Both the position numbers and the translations under genes were made by a program. The notes under the pieces were generated by a model. It worked only from the letters and a program-made list of their open reading frames with translations. It made no database searches and was not told where the DNA came from. This document shows positions 15,554 to 30,715 of a DNA stretch of 64,000 bases, one piece after another. Positions within the stretch are counted from its first letter, which is position 1, and each line of letters begins with the position of its first letter. The stretch is taken from contig NZ_WKKW01000006.1 of the NCBI RefSeq assembly GCF_009683175.1, forward strand, positions 62,001 to 126,000, read 5' to 3'. The stretch is from Bifidobacterium asteroides. GTDB taxonomy: Bacteria > Actinomycetota > Actinomycetes > Actinomycetales > Bifidobacteriaceae.

Positions 15554-16669
15554 TCAGAAGGTGGAGTAGTTGGACATCTGTCTGAGCATGGGTACGTTGC
15601 TGGCCAGCCACGGGAAGCCCCATTCCATCAGGGCGCAGGCCAGAGCCAACAGGAGCAGAATCAGCAGGAGCCACCGAATCGGAGCTATGCCGGACTGGTG
15701 CCGCAGCAGCCAGCCATAGAGGCTGATCATGGGCTGAGGCTTCTCGCCCTTGCGAATCTGCCGCAGCAAGGGGTAACGCCAGGCAGCCAGGGCCGCCAGG
15801 TAGATGATCAGATAGGCTGCTGCCAAAACCAGGAAGACCGGCTGCAGAGAACCCAGTCTGGCCATGACCGAGCCCTTGTCGTCTGCAAAGGCCACATCGC
15901 TGCCGCGGTCGCCCAGGAGTTCCTTGGGCACTCCGTCGGACACCTTGGCCCAGTAGTCGAATTCGCCCCAGCTGATCCAGCGGTGGGTGGCCGTGGTGTA
16001 CTTGGGCTCGCAGGTGGTCAGCGTGATCATTCGCCGGTCAGGAGCCTCTTTGGGCGAATAAGGGTTGGGAGCGATAACACTGACCTCGTTGGCAGCGACG
16101 ATCTTATAGCGGGTGTAGTGGTAGACGTACCAGTAATCCTTGGTGCGCAGGACGATGGCATCGCCCACCCGCAGCTCGTCCACATGTCCCAGCGGCTCAC
16201 CATAGCCGGCGCGGTGTCCGGCAATGGCCACGTTGCCCATCTCGCCCGGCATCTGCGTATTGGGGTAGTGTCCCAGCCCCGCGTAAGCCAGCTCTCGGGG
16301 CGACGTGCCCTGAACCACGTTACGCTCCCAATGCTGTCCAAAACGGGGAATGTAGGCCTGGGCAATCAGTTCACCCTCGGAGGCCTGCTTGGGCTGCACC
16401 GGCGGATCCCCCTTCTGAGGCTTGGCCACCTTGCGGGTGTCGCCCGATCCCGGGTTGCTCCAGGAGGTCGAGGCCCGGGCCTCCAACTGCTGATGCTCGG
16501 ACTGCACGCCGGTCCACCAGAGCTGCCAGACCACGTAGAGTGCGCAGACGACTGCCAGAGTGATCAGCAGCTCCCCTACGATTTCTGCAATGCCCACCAG
16601 CCAGGTTCGCCGCTTATCCGCCGGTTTGTCGACCGACGTTTTGTCGTTCTCCGAGTCCTCTGTCGTCAT
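15554..16669 (-). CDS. srtE: Class E sortase
   Basis: A membrane transpeptidase of 371 residues that would attach sorting-signal proteins to peptidoglycan. It has an N-terminal membrane helix (about 27-50), a Pro/Gln-rich linker, and the sortase barrel at about 100-260. The catalytic residues are His152 (GHRAG), Cys220 (LTTCEP) and an Arg near 230 (THRWISW). Two or three further hydrophobic segments make a long C-terminal membrane region, unusual for simple class E sortases but seen in bifidobacterial and actinomycete ones. Class E enzymes in actinobacteria prefer LAxTG; the protein at 5049-5927 ends in LAKTGA. The start ATG abuts the stop of the DUF881 gene, so the two are one transcript. 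Confidence 0.88.
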   Translation of the reverse strand: MTTEDSENDKTSVDKPADKRRTWLVGIAEIVGELLITLAVVCALYVVWQLWWTGVQSEHQQLEARASTSWSNPGSGDTRKVAKPQKGDPPVQPKQASEGELIAQAYIPRFGQHWERNVVQGTSPRELAYAGLGHYPNTQMPGEMGNVAIAGHRAGYGEPLGHVDELRVGDAIVLRTKDYWYVYHYTRYKIVAANEVSVIAPNPYSPKEAPDRRMITLTTCEPKYTTATHRWISWGEFDYWAKVSDGVPKELLGDRGSDVAFADDKGSVMARLGSLQPVFLVLAAAYLIIYLAALAAWRYPLLRQIRKGEKPQPMISLYGWLLRHQSGIAPIRWLLLILLLLALACALMEWGFPWLASNVPMLRQMSNYSTF

Positions 16670-23523: not shown

Positions 23524-23715
23524 ACTCCACCGGGGTCACGTGCCCTTGCACCGGCGCACGGGACCATGAAACGTATTCGACCCGAAAGCGTCCTAGAATG
23601 GGCCGCGAGCCATCGAACCGAAGGCTGTGGGCCTGCAACGCCGACCACCAATAACCGCGGAGGAGCCGTGGAATGGTCGAAGACCGGGCAACCTGCGATT
23701 CGACAAGGAGGACTG

Positions 23716-26475
23716 ATGACAGATAGTAATCAGCAAATCACGGCTGCCGATGCGACCCTGGTCACATCCGGCACCGGGACCAAGGGGCCGGAGGAACGCA
23801 AGCTGCCTCAATCGTTGGATGAGGACATGGCCTTGTGCCTGCGGCTGCTCAGGGATGTGTTGGGGGAATTCGATCAACAGCTGCTCAAGCGGTTCGACTC
23901 CCTGCGCGAGGACGTGATGACGGCCAGCGCCGAGCACTTCAACCGCCACCCCTCGGACCCCGTGCCCGACGAGGACGGCCTGTCCAAGGCTGTGGCCCTG
24001 ATCGACGACACATCCGTCAAGGATTCCCAGCTGCTGGCCCGCGCCCTGACCACCTACTTTCACCTGGCCAACCTCTGCGAGGAGAACTACCGGGTGAAGG
24101 TCCTGCATGAGCGCGAGGGCAAGGTGGACCTGAAGGTCAAGGGCACCGACCCCATCAACGAGATGACCAGCGCCTACAGCCAGCTCCTTCAGGAGATGGG
24201 CCCGGCCAAGGCCTCGGAGCTGCTTGAGAAGCTGGAGTTCCACCCCGTCTTCACCGCCCACCCCACTGAGGCGCGGCGCAAGGCCGTGGAGGGCAAGATC
24301 CGGCGCATCGCCAACCTGCTGGCCGTTCGCCGCGGCCTGGGCGGTTCCGAGCTGGAGGAGAACGAGCGTCTGCTGCACAACGAGATCGACGCCCTCTTCC
24401 GCACCTCGCCCATCGCAGCCAAGAAGCCGACGCCCGTCGAAGAGGCCAACACCATTCTGGACATCTTCGACGCCACGCTCTTCGAGACCATTCCCAAGGT
24501 CTACCGCCGCTTCGACGACTGGATGCTGGGCAAGAAGGCCGGCATGGTCAAGCCCGTCTGCCCCGCCTTCTTCCACCCGGGCAGCTGGATCGGCTCCGAC
24601 CGCGACGGCAACCCCAACGTGACCGCCAAGGTCTCGCGCAAGGTGGCGCGCAAGTTCTCCGACCACATGCTCAAGGCCCTGGTCAAGGCCACCACCACCG
24701 TGGGCCGCAATATGACCATGGAGGTGACCACCACGCCGCCCAGCCCCGAGCTGAGGAGCCTGTGGAGCCACCAGAAGGAGATGAGCGAGCGCCTGACCGA
24801 CCGGGCCACCACCATCTCGCACAACGAGCTGCACCGGGCCGTGGTCCTGGTCATCGCCGACCGTCTGCAGGCCACCATCCAGCGTGATGCCGACCTCATG
24901 TATGCCGACTGCGACGACTTCATCGCCGACCTGCGCGTGGTCCAGGACTCCCTGGCCAAAGCGGGCGCGGTCCGTCAGGCCTACGGACCCCTGCAGGATC
25001 TGATCTGGCAGGCCCAGACCTTCGGCTTCCACATGGTCGAGATGGAGTTCCGCCAGCACTCACTGGTCCACGCCCGCGCCTTGGAGGACATCCGCGAGCA
25101 CGGCCTGCACGGCGAGCGCGGCGAGCTGCAGCCCATGACCCACGAGGTGCTCGACACCTTCCGGGCCCTGGGAGCCATCCAGAAGCGCAACGGCCAGAAG
25201 GCCGCCCGCCGCTACATCATCTCCTTCACCAAGTCGGCGCAGAACGTCAAGGACGTCTACGAACTCAACCGGCTGGCCTTCGAGCATGCCGAGGACGTGC
25301 CGGTCATCGACGTGATCCCCCTGTTCGAACAGCTGGAGGACCTGCAGAACTCGGTGGACGTGCTGGAGGAGATCATCAAGATCCCCGAGGTCCAGGCGCG
25401 GCTCAAGGAGACCGGCAACAAGATGGAGGTCATGCTGGGCTACTCCGACTCCTCCAAGGACGCTGGCCCCGTCTCGGCGACCCTGGCCCTGCACTCCGCC
25501 CAGGAGCGCATCGCCAAGTGGGCCGAGAGCCATGACATCGACCTGACCCTCTTCCACGGACGCGGCGGCGCCGTAGGCCGTGGCGGCGGCCCTGCCAACC
25601 GTGCCGTGCTGGCCCAGCCTGTGGGCTCGGTCAACTGCCGGTTCAAGCTGACCGAACAGGGCGAGGTCATCTTCGCCCGCTACGGCAACCCGGTCCTGGC
25701 CATCCGCCACATCGAGTCCGTGGCTGCGGCCACCCTGCTCCAGTCCGCGCCCAGCGTGGAGGAGCGCAACACCACCATGACCGAGAAGTACGCGGACATG
25801 GCCGACAAGCTGGACCAGGCCGCCCACGAGCGCTTCCTGGACCTGCTGCACACGCCGGACTTCGCCCCCTGGTTCTCCATCGTGACACCCCTGAACGAGA
25901 TCGGCCTGCTGCCCATCGGCTCCCGGCCCGCCAAGCGCGGCCTGGGCGCCAAGTCCCTGGACGATCTGCGGACCATACCCTGGGTCTTCTCCTGGGCGCA
26001 GGCCCGCATCAACCTGGCCGCCTGGTACGGCCTGGGCACCGCCTGCGAGAAGTTCGGCGACCTGGAGACCCTGCGTCAGGCCTACGAGGAATGGCCACTC
26101 TTCAGCACCTTCATCGACAACATCGAGATGAGCCTGGCCAAGACCGACGAGCGCATCGCCAAGATGTACCTCTCCCTGGGCGACCGGGACGACCTGAGCC
26201 AGAAGGTCCTCTCGGAGATGGAGCTGACCCGCAAGTGGGTTCTGCAGATCGTAGGCGACGAGTGGCCCCTGCAGCACCGCCACGTGCTGGGCCAGGCCAT
26301 CCGGATCCGCTCTCCCTATGTGGATGCCCTGTCGGTGACCCAGGTGCGCGCCCTGCGGGCCCTGCGTCGTCGCAACGACAAGGAGGAGCTCAGCAAGAGC
26401 CAACAGGCCGACTTCATCTACCTGATCCTCTGCACCGTTTCGGGAGTTGCCGCCGGCCTGCAGAACACCGGCTGA
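23716..26475 (+). CDS. ppc: Phosphoenolpyruvate carboxylase
   Basis: Converts PEP and bicarbonate to oxaloacetate, the main carbon-refilling step in bifidobacteria. The protein has 919 residues, the normal length. Active-site signatures are visible: HPTEARRK (about 182), SWIGSDRDGNPNV, MLGYSDSSKDAGP (about 573) and GRGGAVGRGGGP (about 615). The C terminus is QNTG, the conserved ending that takes part in regulation. AAGGAGGA lies six bases before the ATG at 23716; a long in-frame extension upstream is antisense to the ThrE-type gene and not coding. The gene is monocistronic with a hairpin after it. Confidence 0.96.
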   Translation: MTDSNQQITAADATLVTSGTGTKGPEERKLPQSLDEDMALCLRLLRDVLGEFDQQLLKRFDSLREDVMTASAEHFNRHPSDPVPDEDGLSKAVALIDDTSVKDSQLLARALTTYFHLANLCEENYRVKVLHEREGKVDLKVKGTDPINEMTSAYSQLLQEMGPAKASELLEKLEFHPVFTAHPTEARRKAVEGKIRRIANLLAVRRGLGGSELEENERLLHNEIDALFRTSPIAAKKPTPVEEANTILDIFDATLFETIPKVYRRFDDWMLGKKAGMVKPVCPAFFHPGSWIGSDRDGNPNVTAKVSRKVARKFSDHMLKALVKATTTVGRNMTMEVTTTPPSPELRSLWSHQKEMSERLTDRATTISHNELHRAVVLVIADRLQATIQRDADLMYADCDDFIADLRVVQDSLAKAGAVRQAYGPLQDLIWQAQTFGFHMVEMEFRQHSLVHARALEDIREHGLHGERGELQPMTHEVLDTFRALGAIQKRNGQKAARRYIISFTKSAQNVKDVYELNRLAFEHAEDVPVIDVIPLFEQLEDLQNSVDVLEEIIKIPEVQARLKETGNKMEVMLGYSDSSKDAGPVSATLALHSAQERIAKWAESHDIDLTLFHGRGGAVGRGGGPANRAVLAQPVGSVNCRFKLTEQGEVIFARYGNPVLAIRHIESVAAATLLQSAPSVEERNTTMTEKYADMADKLDQAAHERFLDLLHTPDFAPWFSIVTPLNEIGLLPIGSRPAKRGLGAKSLDDLRTIPWVFSWAQARINLAAWYGLGTACEKFGDLETLRQAYEEWPLFSTFIDNIEMSLAKTDERIAKMYLSLGDRDDLSQKVLSEMELTRKWVLQIVGDEWPLQHRHVLGQAIRIRSPYVDALSVTQVRALRALRRRNDKEELSKSQQADFIYLILCTVSGVAAGLQNTG

Positions 26476-26497
26476 TTGCCGCTTGGCGGCTTATGGA

Positions 26498-26539
26498 CGA
26501 GGCCCCGTTCTCTTGCAGATAGCAGGAGGCGGGGCCTCG
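26498..26539 (+). terminator. Hairpin after ppc
   Basis: A perfect 10-bp GC-rich stem (26498-26507 with 26530-26539) and a 22-base loop, 22 bp past the stop. There is no T-run, so the call rests on position and stability. Confidence 0.5.
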
Positions 26540-26738
26540 CCGTATCCAAGTGCCCCTGATGTGGTCGTGTGTTGTTTTCTGGCTAGGTGGTAGGGTGAAA
26601 AGCGGGGGGCGTCGAGAAGACGGCTGGCTTGCGCCATTGGCTCCTGCGATGTGATGCAGGGTTGGCGCTGGCAGGCAGAACTTGAGTAGACAAACGGTGT
26701 TGATTCCGTTTGGTGTTTGGTGAAGGGGTTTTGGTTTG

Positions 26739-29700
26739 ATGCATCTGGTTTCCCGTCTGCGCCGCATCCTGGCGACGATGACCGTCCTGCTGGGAATGCT
26801 GGCGGGCTTGGGCGTCGCATCCGCCCAGGCGGACGCTCCCATACTCACCGGGGGGGGGGGGTCGTCAGACCCCTCGCGTAGCTGACGGAACCTCCGGCAC
26901 TCTCCCCAGCAACGCAACCAGCACACCACTATCCACACCATCGCCAATTCAAACCACCACACCATTAAGCTCCGCAACGCCTAGTCCGGACACCCCGTCA
27001 TCGACAACAAAATCACCCGGCAGCGCAGACTCTACACCGGTTAAATCAGCCGAAAAAACAGATGATAAGGCTTCGCATACAGTGCGTTTCGACCCCGACG
27101 ACGGCAGCAAGCCCACTCAGTCAACCGTGAAAACCGGCACCCTCGCCACTCCCCCGGAAAAGAACCCGCAGCGTGAAAGCTTCCGCTTCGACGGATGGAC
27201 ATACGACGGCCAGCCCTTCGACTTCCAGATGCCCATCCTCCAGGACACGACCCTGAAAGCACACTGGTCGGAGACCACGGACTGGACGCTGAATCCGGAC
27301 CACGGGCCCGCCTCCGGCGCACGGCTGACAATCAGCCCTCCCGACAGGCAGGAACCTTACTACGTCAGTGTCCAAGCCGGAGGAGACCAGATTGTGAGCC
27401 TGACCGGCGACGGCCGCATCTACACACGGACGCAAAACGGCACCCCCAACCGGGTTCCCTCCCCCGCGCAGGCATCCGACGGGTTCCACTACCTGCAGGC
27501 CGCAGCCGGCAGCCGATGGCAGGCCGCGCTCGGATCCGACCAGCAGATATACACCTGGACCAGCCAACAGCCCGCGCCCACCATGCTCGACACCGGCCAG
27601 AACACTAAATTCACTAGCATCAGCATGAACGATGATCGGCTTCTAGCAGTGGACCAGCAAGGTCGGATCCACGCCTTCCAAGCCAGCCTGACAGGCAGCC
27701 AGAAACTGAACCCGAAGCCCCCCGAACAAGCCACGATCAGGCTGCCCGGGAAAACACAGGCCGTCACCGCCGTCGGCTCCAGCAACCGTACCCTCGTCCT
27801 GGACACAGACGGGCAAGCCTGGACTAGGGACACAGCCAGCACAGGAAAAGCCAAGACCACGCGCATCAGTCATGACCCGGACATGCATATCATCCAAGTC
27901 CAAGCCCTCAACCAAGGGTTCCTCCTCTTGGACGCGGACGGGCAGGCCTATTACATGGATGACGGCAAGACCGGCATCATAGCCGCTGGGCTTCCGGAAG
28001 GCATAAAAGCCAGCAGTATCGCCAGCAACAAGGACCAGGCCATGATTACCGACAAGGATGGCTGCCTCTGGATCTGGAAGCTCGGAGATACACCCGAGCG
28101 CGCAGACAACAAGGGACAGGCCTACACGCAGGCCACCGCTGCCGGCAGCAGGATCACCGCCATCAGCAGGCAGGGTAATGTGTTCATGTGGAGCCTGGAC
28201 GGGCAGGGCCAGCCCGGCAAACCGGCCAGACTCGACACCACCACAGCGCCCACCCTGGAATCAGCCAGCCTGGACAGCCAAGCATTGAAACTCAGTAAGA
28301 ACAACGGCTCATGGCAGGCGGACATGCCCGCCCGCAAGCCGGGACCAGCAGCCATCACCATCACCGGCAGGCAGGACGGCCAACCCTTCACCAGAAGCCT
28401 CACCTACACGGTCGACCAGCCACTGACACGAGCCGTCGAACCAAGATCCACGCTCACAGTCCACTTCGACACGGGCGGGGGGGAACCCGAACCAGCAGAC
28501 CAGAGTTTCACCACCCCGAACAGCAGGGTGAAGAGGCCCTCCCCCGATCCGTCGCGCCAAGGCTTCCTGTTCGACGGATGGTTCATCAACCAGGTCGCCT
28601 ACGATTTCAGCAAGCCAGTCACCAAGGACCTGACCCTGACCGCCCACTGGTCGCCGGCAAGCCGGAACAGCGGGTGGAGCATCAGCCCCGACAAGGGCAG
28701 CCAGCTGGGCAAGGAATCCACAACCGTCACCCCGCCAGACAGCGCCAGCCGGGGCATCAGGTTCAACCAGGTCAGCGCGTCAACATACGACTATAATGCT
28801 GATGGTTTTTCCTTGGCTGTGGGCAGCGACGGGAACGCATACTCCTGGGGAAGCAACAGCGATGGACAGCTCGGCGACGGGACGCAAACCATGCGGACTA
28901 CGCCGGTCATGGTGAAGAAGCCCACAGGTGCGCCTAAAGATTTCACCTACGTACAGGTCAGCGCCGGAACCGACCATTCACTGGCCCTGGGCAGCGACGG
29001 GAACGCATACTCCTGGGGAAGCAACAGCAGTGGACAGCTCGGCAACAACCAGTCGTACGCTACTAGTCTTACGCCGGCCATGGTGAAGAAGCCGGCAGAC
29101 GCGCCTGCGGATTTCACCTACGTACAGGTCAGCGCCGGAGACTCTTATTCGCTGGCCGTAGGCAGCGACGGATACGCGTACGCCTGGGGATACAACGGCA
29201 ATGGACAGCTCGGCAACAACACCAGCGGTTCCTATGTGCATTCGACTGTTCCTGTGCGCGTGCGCGACCCCGCCAACCCCACTGACACGAACAAAGGACT
29301 GCAAGCCGTACAGGTCAGCGCCGGAGACTCTTATTCGCTAGCCGTGGGCAGCGACGGGAACACCTACGCCTGGGGAAAGAACGCCGATGGCCAGCTCGGC
29401 GACGGGACCAGCTTCAGCCGGAATACGCCGGCCATGGTGAAGAAGCCTGAAGGCAAGCCCGCAGATTTCACCTACGTACAGGTCAGCGCCGGATACGCTC
29501 ATTCGCTGGCCGTAGGCAGCGACGGATACGCATACGCCTGGGGATACAACGGCTATGGCCAGCTCGGCAACAACAGCATCAGCGAGTCATTGGTTCCTGT
29601 GCGCGTGCGCGACCCTGCCAACCCCACTGACACGAACAAAGGACTGCAAGCCGTACAGGTCAGCGCCGGATACTTTCATTCGCTAGCCGTGGGCAGCAAT

Positions 29701-30312
29701 GGATACATCTACACCTGGGGATACAACAGCAATGGCCAGCTCGGCAATAAAACAGCGGATCCATCAGTTCCAGTGCTCACGCGCGACCCCGCCAACCCCA
29801 CTGACACGAACAAAGGACTGCAAGCCGTACAAGTCAGCGGCGGACAATTTCATTCCCTGGCGATCGGCACGGACGGGAGCGCCGAAGCATGGGGAAGCAA
29901 CGAATTTGGCCAGTTAGGCAACGACAGCATCCCCACTGGGAACTATACCAGCAGAGTTCTGACCCCTGTGCCGGTGGTGTTCAATCTGGCGCCAGTAATC
30001 ACCGGCGTCAAATTCGACAGCAATACCGCAACAGGATTGACGCGTGGTGATGGAGGTAGCGTGACAGTGCTCACGCCTGCACACCTGCCGGGTATGGTCA
30101 CGGTCAGCGTGGACTACACGCTGGGCGGCGCACCCCAAGCGCCGGACACCTCCCTCAGGTACACGTACCTGCCCGCAGGCGTGCTCCCACAGGCTGGAGG
30201 GGAAGGCATCCTGCTCGCCCTCGCCACGGGCATGACCGGCATGGGCGGGGTCCTGGCATCCCGCCGCCACCGGAGGGAACAACACCGACTGTCACACGCT
30301 TCGCACGAGTAA
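26739..30312 (+). CDS. Phase-variable RCC1/InlB-repeat surface protein, out of frame at a G12 tract (OFF)
   Basis: ATG 26739 (GAAGGGG ten bases upstream) opens a signal peptide of about 34 residues (basic start, hydrophobic core, ASAQA). After ILT the frame meets 12 G and, as sequenced, stops at 26883-26885, giving 48 residues. In the frame reached by 11 or 14 G, reading is open without a stop to 30310, giving 1190 residues. That frame begins with a Ser/Thr/Pro-rich stretch, as expected of a surface stalk. Then come an InlB-type repeat, a beta-propeller-like region, a second InlB-type repeat and seven RCC1-like repeats (xSLAVGSDGxxYxWGxNxxGQLG). The end is LPQAGG, a hydrophobic helix and RRHRRE: a sortase signal of LPxAG form. 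One homopolymer error could mimic this, so the state needs reads. Confidence 0.8.
26850..26861 (+). repeat. Poly-G tract of 12 bases (slippage switch)
   Basis: Twelve consecutive G lie just after the signal-peptide codons. With 12 G the frame stops eight codons after the tract; with 13 G it stops at a TAG in the third frame; with 11 or 14 G it is fully open. Runs this long are very rare in coding DNA and prone to slipped-strand change. Confidence 0.85.
28770..29935 (+). repeat. Seven tandem RCC1-encoding repeats
   Basis: Units of 168-186 bp share the core GTACAGGTCAGCGCCGGA at 28951, 29122, 29308, 29476 and 29653, and a variant at 29827. Two linker types recur between cores. One encodes PAMVKKP..AP.DFTYVQV; the other encodes VRVRDPANPTDTNKGLQAV. 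The near identity of copies suggests recent homogenisation or copy-number change by recombination. Confidence 0.85.
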
Positions 30313-30715
30313 GAGCGGCCGGGCGGCGTATCAATCCCCCCGCCCCCAGCCCACACAGGGGGAGCAGGGAGGAAACGTGTCACGTAAGGCTCAAACCCCA
30401 AGAGAGCCGACACTTCCCTCCCGCGCCCCCACCACACTTCTGCAGGCGGAAGCCGAGGGCAGGCATGCACGCCCCCGCCCCTACCTGGGAGAGAGGGAAA
30501 CACGGCCAAGCTGGCCACGGGCATACAACCCCAGCCAGCCTGGCCGCTGTTTACTCATTCCGCCTGCTTTGAGTTCCGCCAACACTGGATCAGGCTGTCA
30601 TAGTCATTGCGCGATGATAGGGTTGTATCACTGTACAAAGACGCAGAAACGGATGACATGTACCGTCTGTTGGGGAGACAGTCGGCAGAGTTCTTGGGAG
30701 GCTCTGTAAATGGAG
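30313..30715. other. Gene-free stretch after the surface protein gene
   Basis: About 400 bp with short, unconvincing frames. GC-rich C/G runs at 30339-30363 may form a terminator-like structure. The 15-mer CTTCGCACGAGTAAG, which contains the surface gene's stop region, recurs once downstream near 30739, a trace of a local duplication or rearrangement. Confidence 0.45.

Follow-up and report, generated by a model that had tools for sequence, protein, structure and literature searches.

A poly-G tract as the probable slipped-strand switch of a family of wall-anchored RCC1-repeat proteins in bifidobacteria, with the copy examined here OFF in its assembly

In the opa genes of Neisseria, each copy carries its own repeat, a pentamer, near the signal peptide. 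About 11 phase-variable opa copies have been described (PMC3745409). Among bifidobacteria, a tested precedent for such switching is provided by the sortase-dependent pili, for which the accessible text of PMC9187656 describes a switch that operates by replication slippage at a G-tract. There, tracts of 8–13 G are tabulated in the 5′ part of the gene for a secreted, anchored protein, and in B. breve UCC2003 the tract divides each of the two pilus genes into an upstream secretion-signal frame and a body frame; the same source warns that consensus homopolymer lengths can be wrong. A second body of work concerns RCC1-repeat proteins. The B. asteroides PRL2011 genome was reported to hold 19 nearly identical RCC1 copies of unassigned function (PMC3447821), and bee strains were found to carry 7–24 RCC1 genes each, mostly in tandem clusters and with List_Bact and LPxTG features, which evolve by duplication and diversifying selection (PMC4449606). 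The RCC1 family of bee-gut bifidobacteria and G-tract switching in bifidobacterial pili are, on these accessible texts, already known separately. The portions of PMC3447821 and PMC4449606 available to us make no mention of a G-tract, phase variation or a frameshift in RCC1 genes: among the frame and phase vocabulary checked, only ‘pseudogene’ occurs in PMC4449606, and PMC3447821 contains neither ‘frameshift’ nor ‘homopolymer’ and, in its accessible passages, speaks of ‘phase’ in relation to growth. Literature searches returned no link between the RCC1 family and phase variation among the best matches listed, in a literature that is mostly open access, and nothing that combines Bifidobacterium, RCC1 and sortase; of six papers that pair Bifidobacterium with RCC1, two deal with bee strains. 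The first-pass annotation of the locus described here had pointed to G-run slippage in bifidobacterial pilus genes, correctly in light of PMC9187656, and had considered an RCC1 protein under such control to be undescribed; the latter holds insofar as no paper joining family and switch was found among the best matches listed, while the RCC1 surface family itself is on record in the accessible text of PMC3447821 and PMC4449606.

The gene in question lies in the window, by which we mean the whole 64-kb stretch of DNA that was analysed. Its coding sequence is distributed over two frames that meet at a run of 12 G (Table 1). The upstream frame opens with an ATG, encodes a signal peptide (signal-peptide calls throughout use a rule on hydrophobicity and not a trained predictor), enters the tract on a codon boundary, and ends at a TGA (26883–26885) after 48 residues, exactly as first annotated. 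The body lies in another frame, of which the listed open reading frame covers 27082–30312 (1076 codons); read from stop to stop, this frame extends over 1176 codons and reaches left of the tract, bearing out the earlier statement that it is open on both sides. The 1190 residues proposed for the re-registered protein fit these coordinates arithmetically. Directly 3′ of the tract, the body frame is rich in Ser, Thr and Pro, a composition that agrees with the stalk postulated there. The RCC1-repeat assignment was likewise upheld: Pfam places RCC1 repeats in seven stretches of the body and List_Bact_rpt (Flg_new) in two, so that both the RCC1 repeats and the upstream List_Bact repeat of the bee-bifidobacteria RCC1 family are present. 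The RCC1 domain is matched by WD40_RLD at E 5.6e-132 (best stretch, residues 537–843), and PDB sequence matches, to proteins of the RCC1 fold including UVR8, HERC2 and RCC1, extend to approximately residue 948. The protein ends in an LPQAG motif followed by a hydrophobic stretch and then a basic tail; the sortase anchor claimed at first pass is thus retained in its architecture, with the qualification that the motif is an LPxAG variant and the canonical LPxTG is absent. No promoter-like consensus match was detected in 26440–30620, for which 0.8 are expected in shuffles.

Table 1 Features of the RCC1-repeat gene and its surroundings in the window.
Feature	Coordinates	Strand	Basis
Possible ribosome-binding site 5′ of the ATG	26722..26728	+	By eye
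Upstream frame: ATG, signal peptide and short dead end past the tract (48 codons and TGA)	26739..26885	+	Hydrophobicity rule
12-G tract, putative switch	26850..26861	+	0.0021 runs of ≥12 expected in the window
Conserved flank 3′ of the tract, both wrong frames closed by stops (TAG ending 26881, TGA ending 26885)	26862..26885	+	
Body frame, stop to stop, spanning the tract	26782 (approximate)..30312	+	Open reading frame reading
Ser/Thr/Pro-rich stalk, body frame	26863..27081	+	Composition
First RCC1-like domain, degenerate	27364..28257	+	WD40_RLD, E 6e-13, bits under the curated cut-off
List_Bact_rpt (Flg_new)	28456..28647	+	PF09479, two stretches, best at residues 459–522
Other List_Bact_rpt, close to the body start, placed by eye		+	PF09479
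RCC1 repeat domain, seven repeats, right edge approximate	28690..29931	+	PF00415 and PF13540, seven stretches each
C-terminal LPQAG, hydrophobic stretch, basic tail and stop	30184..30312	+	
Sortase domain, ~10 kb from the gene, one of the genome's two sortase matches	15962..16354	−	PF04203 (G000:C6:77962-78354)

The tract is not a chance run. It is the only G/C run of eight or more in the window, where the remaining long runs comprise ten of six and one of seven, and an order-3 model predicts 0.0021 runs of at least 12 for the 64-kb window and 0.07 genome-wide. The genome to which the window belongs (2.14 Mb in 17 contigs) holds 11 runs of at least 11 G, both strands counted, and seven of these lie in RCC1 genes, just past the signal peptide and on the coding strand. 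Elsewhere in the genus, runs of this length are abundant in some genomes (84 in G026, 47 in G002 and 45 in G017), which may reflect a broader contingency repertoire there. Six genomes with zero or one RCC1 match have three to five such runs and a further genome with one match (G009) has none; few were counted in G012 (5) and G021 (6) despite many RCC1 matches.

The first-pass annotation had described a switch in a single gene; the switch arrangement stands, but it proved to be family-wide. The window body matches 46 stretches in its own genome. Several ends of contigs C2, C3, C5 and C8 fall in or near RCC1 matches, as is expected for a repeat family, so the RCC1 copy number in this assembly is a lower bound. 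Seven RCC1 genes in the genome bear tracts (12, 12, 12, 12, 12, 15 and 11 G), and all seven are out of frame, shifted the same way; the six tract-less paralogues examined that have a readable 5′ end are all in frame, a scoring that left out one tract-less paralogue whose 5′ end is cut as well as short contig-end fragments. Relatives of the window gene at E 1e-30 or better occur in 22 of the 27 genomes of the genus that were compared. Across the bacterial family, where fewer candidates were scored per genome, 26 of 189 genomes have relatives, in two genera; a G-run followed by the conserved flank (up to three mismatches) was found in 11 of the 189, all in the genus of the window, with as many as 16 flank-bearing tracts in a single genome, and a reversed-pattern control returned none. 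A search of genome contigs for close relatives of the window gene yielded only two distant loci. Of the 65 long open frames examined, 63 contain the motif L[PA]x[AST]G within their last 80 residues, although in 29 of these the automatic hit is LAAAG or LATAG and probably lies inside the hydrophobic stretch; of the two frames that lack it, one belongs to a gene other than an RCC1 gene and the second (L044) ends in a changed frame.

Tract length and frame state were compared across loci whose 5′ ends came from the matches listed that reach the query start and from the larger clusters, after de-duplication. We dropped 34 non-RCC frames, four hand-checked false items and seven loci with a cut 5′ end before counting, and excluded two loci of another clade (L049 and L052) from the tract count. 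Among the matches listed, the main clade contains 81 tract loci in 11 genomes, with 19 in frame, 61 out of frame and one undetermined; this count, which includes one tract locus without a readable signal (L119), supersedes a count of 82 loci obtained with another de-duplication, of which 18 were in frame and 64 were not. Within the same set, runs range from 10 to 17 G with all three frames represented, and the out-of-frame loci divide into 52 shifted one way and nine the other. The lengths are not evenly spread, since 48 of the 80 loci of known state have exactly 12 G and share the same wrong frame. Tract-less members with a readable 5′ end, again among the matches listed, are in frame in 47 cases and out in three, and the difference from the tract loci (Fisher p 2.7e-16) is to be taken as a guide only because related sequences are not independent. 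None of the three is a clean exception: in L037 a 12-G tract lies immediately upstream and is joined by a further frameshift, L134 has a stop within the propeller, and the open frame of L051 begins 109 bases from a contig start. The tract-less rows include at least one doubtful family member (L138, at 8885).

Loci with altered tracts extend this comparison. Five with an interrupted tract and a retained flank (L083, L084, L088, L091 and L092) are all in frame. Two others (L117 and L122), counted as tract loci, in which a base near the tract's 5′ end is changed and an 11-G run remains, are out of frame, so an altered tract is not always an in-frame one. The ON share differs between genomes, from 7 of 12 in G018 to 0 of 16 in G020 (permutation p 0.01, likewise only a guide among related sequences), and this difference could be technical or culture-related. 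The dominance of 12 G and the uneven ON share may stem from slippage equilibrium, from selection in culture or from the sequencing method.

Both wrong frames are closed shortly past the tract. Among the matches listed, a TAG lies 20 nt past the tract in 78 of the 81 loci, at 19 nt in one, and only after 35 and 107 nt in the remaining two; in the other wrong frame, a TAA or TGA follows at 24 nt in 80 loci and at 23 nt in one, such that both frames are closed within 24 nt at 79 of the 81. The second stop is always TAA or TGA across the tract loci although its base varies. Identity of the 3′ flank to the consensus averages 0.96 over the first 15 columns and is ~0.7 beyond. Measured from a shared motif, both stops fall within 24 nt in 69 of 71 motif-bearing tract loci as against 5 of 47 tract-less members among the matches listed, with the motif found in 14 of these 47 and a fixed distance used for the remainder. 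All five tract-less members that possess both stops keep the motif, and four of them have an interrupted tract.

Matching loci of different genomes differ in tract length and state, with the closeness of the genomes judged from sequence identity only. In one pair, a 12-G locus that is OFF (L041) and an 11-G locus that is ON (L060) share 97.7% DNA identity over 6219 bases, and their bodies 97.9% protein identity; in another, an 11-G locus that is OFF (L151) and a 10-G locus that is ON (L152) are 91.4% identical over 4148 bases. At the site of the window gene itself, the upstream neighbour encodes phosphoenolpyruvate carboxylase (Pfam E 5.8e-220). A locus beside the same gene in another genome (L039) also carries 12 G and is OFF. 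Over the span 23602–30312, the neighbour gene is 98.3% identical between the two at the DNA level whereas the RCC1 body is 75.6% identical, and in two other genomes (L042 and L061) the site is occupied instead by a tract-less, in-frame member, with the neighbour gene 97–98% identical to that of the window in these comparisons. Given a near-identical neighbour next to a diverged or replaced RCC1 gene at one site, the family diverges and turns over rapidly.

The tract is also found at what, from its placement, looks like an additional site of the switch. Among L148–L158, from three other genomes of the genus, there are RCC1 genes in which 10 or 11 G fall within the signal peptide, at its hydrophobic end; L148, L149, L152 and L154 are in frame, and L150, which has a further stop ahead of the body, L151, L155, L157 and L158 are out. 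Together with a locus in a fourth genome that has 14 G after the signal peptide and is out of frame (L167), this set comprises ten tract loci, four in frame and six out. A tract of this kind is moreover borne by a gene unrelated to RCC1. On the minus strand of contig C2 of the window's own genome, a gene for an SBP_bac_1 solute-binding lipoprotein (L029, 1515-3061; G000:C2:312514-314060) has 14 G directly past the lipobox and is out of frame. The only two other genomes of the 27 with a match at 1e-150, G010 (13 G) and G022 (12 G), likewise have it out of frame, and this finding of three OFF copies in three is counted against the switch explanation.

Taken together, a model for the control of this family emerges, in which we place high confidence: the tract is very probably a contingency locus that operates by slipped-strand mispairing on a multigene, wall-anchored surface family, with the window copy captured OFF in the assembly. 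Replication slippage would alter the number of G that separate signal peptide from stalk in the gene for the RCC1-propeller protein. With the two frames in register, the protein is predicted to be made, exported and anchored; with the frames out of register, translation would end at one of the two stops, no more than 24 nt past the tract. As many paralogues bear this same cassette, a population could express different subsets of the family. The model takes its support from the observed tract, frames, stops and family, and from length and state differences among paralogues and matching loci. The contingency reading of the first-pass annotation gains from the relatives on three counts: i) their runs span 10 to 17 G, ii) they occupy all three frames, and iii) matching loci one G apart differ in state. 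Neither one fixed tract length nor a general lack of the G-run was found among them. Weighing against the model are the concentration of lengths at 12 G, the uneven ON share, the out-of-frame L117 and L122, and the possibility of wrong consensus homopolymer lengths. From this arrangement we infer slippage within a clone, presence of the protein on the cell and a binding role. That the protein acts as an adhesin is a guess from its location and architecture, and phage evasion or immune evasion would fit as well as adhesion.

The alternative that survives best, which we nevertheless consider improbable, is programmed slippage of RNA polymerase or the ribosome, whereby the tract would remain out of frame permanently, with recoding yielding a constant fraction of product. 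The dominance of one out-of-frame length and the conserved flank could be read in this way, as could a short predicted RNA hairpin in which the end of the tract pairs with a conserved C-run (26850–26877). That fold is unexceptional (z −1.59, with 15 of 200 shuffles equally good), 19 loci are plainly in frame, and recoding would be needless in the tract-less members; furthermore, near-identical loci of two genomes differ in both length and frame. Very unlikely is a homopolymer assembly or base-calling error in a gene that is always in frame. Homopolymers are error-prone, the ON share varies by genome, and four loci of G003 (L072, L116, L117 and L139) have odd extra bases beside their tracts that are possibly assembly errors of this type. 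We reject pure assembly error because it leaves unexplained the placement of long G-runs at the 5′ end of this RCC1 family and the stops in both wrong frames, and because the equivalent locus of another genome has the same out-of-frame tract. A decaying pseudogene, which we rate lower still, would account for the out-of-frame assembly and is rejected on the intact 1076-codon body, on the in-frame state of other tract-bearing members, and on a body dN/dS of ~0.41–0.53 for the window gene against nine family members, a range that argues against free decay. A pilus operon is dismissed, as no pilin family is among the nine Pfam matches of the body and no sortase is dedicated to the gene's own cluster, the nearest match lying ~10 kb away.

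Returning to the slipped-strand contingency model, its family-wide extension would be a combinatorial surface of the Opa type. Much of a diversifying family of wall-anchored propellers would be governed by one cassette, composed of signal peptide, G-tract and a stop in each wrong frame; with the usual tract length being an OFF length, few members would be displayed per cell, and the displayed set would shift by slippage while the genes exchange sequence. We regard this extension as an evenly balanced proposition. If true, what is probably a harmless bee-gut symbiont would possess a family-wide, independently switchable surface repertoire of a kind most familiar from mucosal pathogens. The upkeep and diversification of the RCC1 family, with its 19 copies in B. 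asteroides PRL2011, would become easier to understand, and natural ON and OFF clones could be compared against host tissue, phages and neighbouring bacteria. Reference genomes of the group may then list many RCC1 genes as OFF or split.

Compared with the described systems, the window family agrees with the bee-gut RCC1 family, so far as the accessible text portrays it, in its RCC1 repeats, List_Bact repeat, C-terminal anchor and many copies. With the pilus switch of PMC9187656, as available to us, it shares a 5′ G-tract in the gene for a secreted, anchored protein and the division into an upstream secretion-signal frame and a body frame. The pilus system differs in being a pilin operon with its own sortase and one or two tracts per genome in the table of that paper, whereas the family described here consists of single genes with propeller domains and reaches 16 flank-bearing tracts per genome. 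In this multiplicity it resembles the opa genes of Neisseria, with many copies of a surface protein spread across the chromosome and a repeat in each; opa differs in its pentamer repeat, its outer-membrane product and its Gram-negative host.
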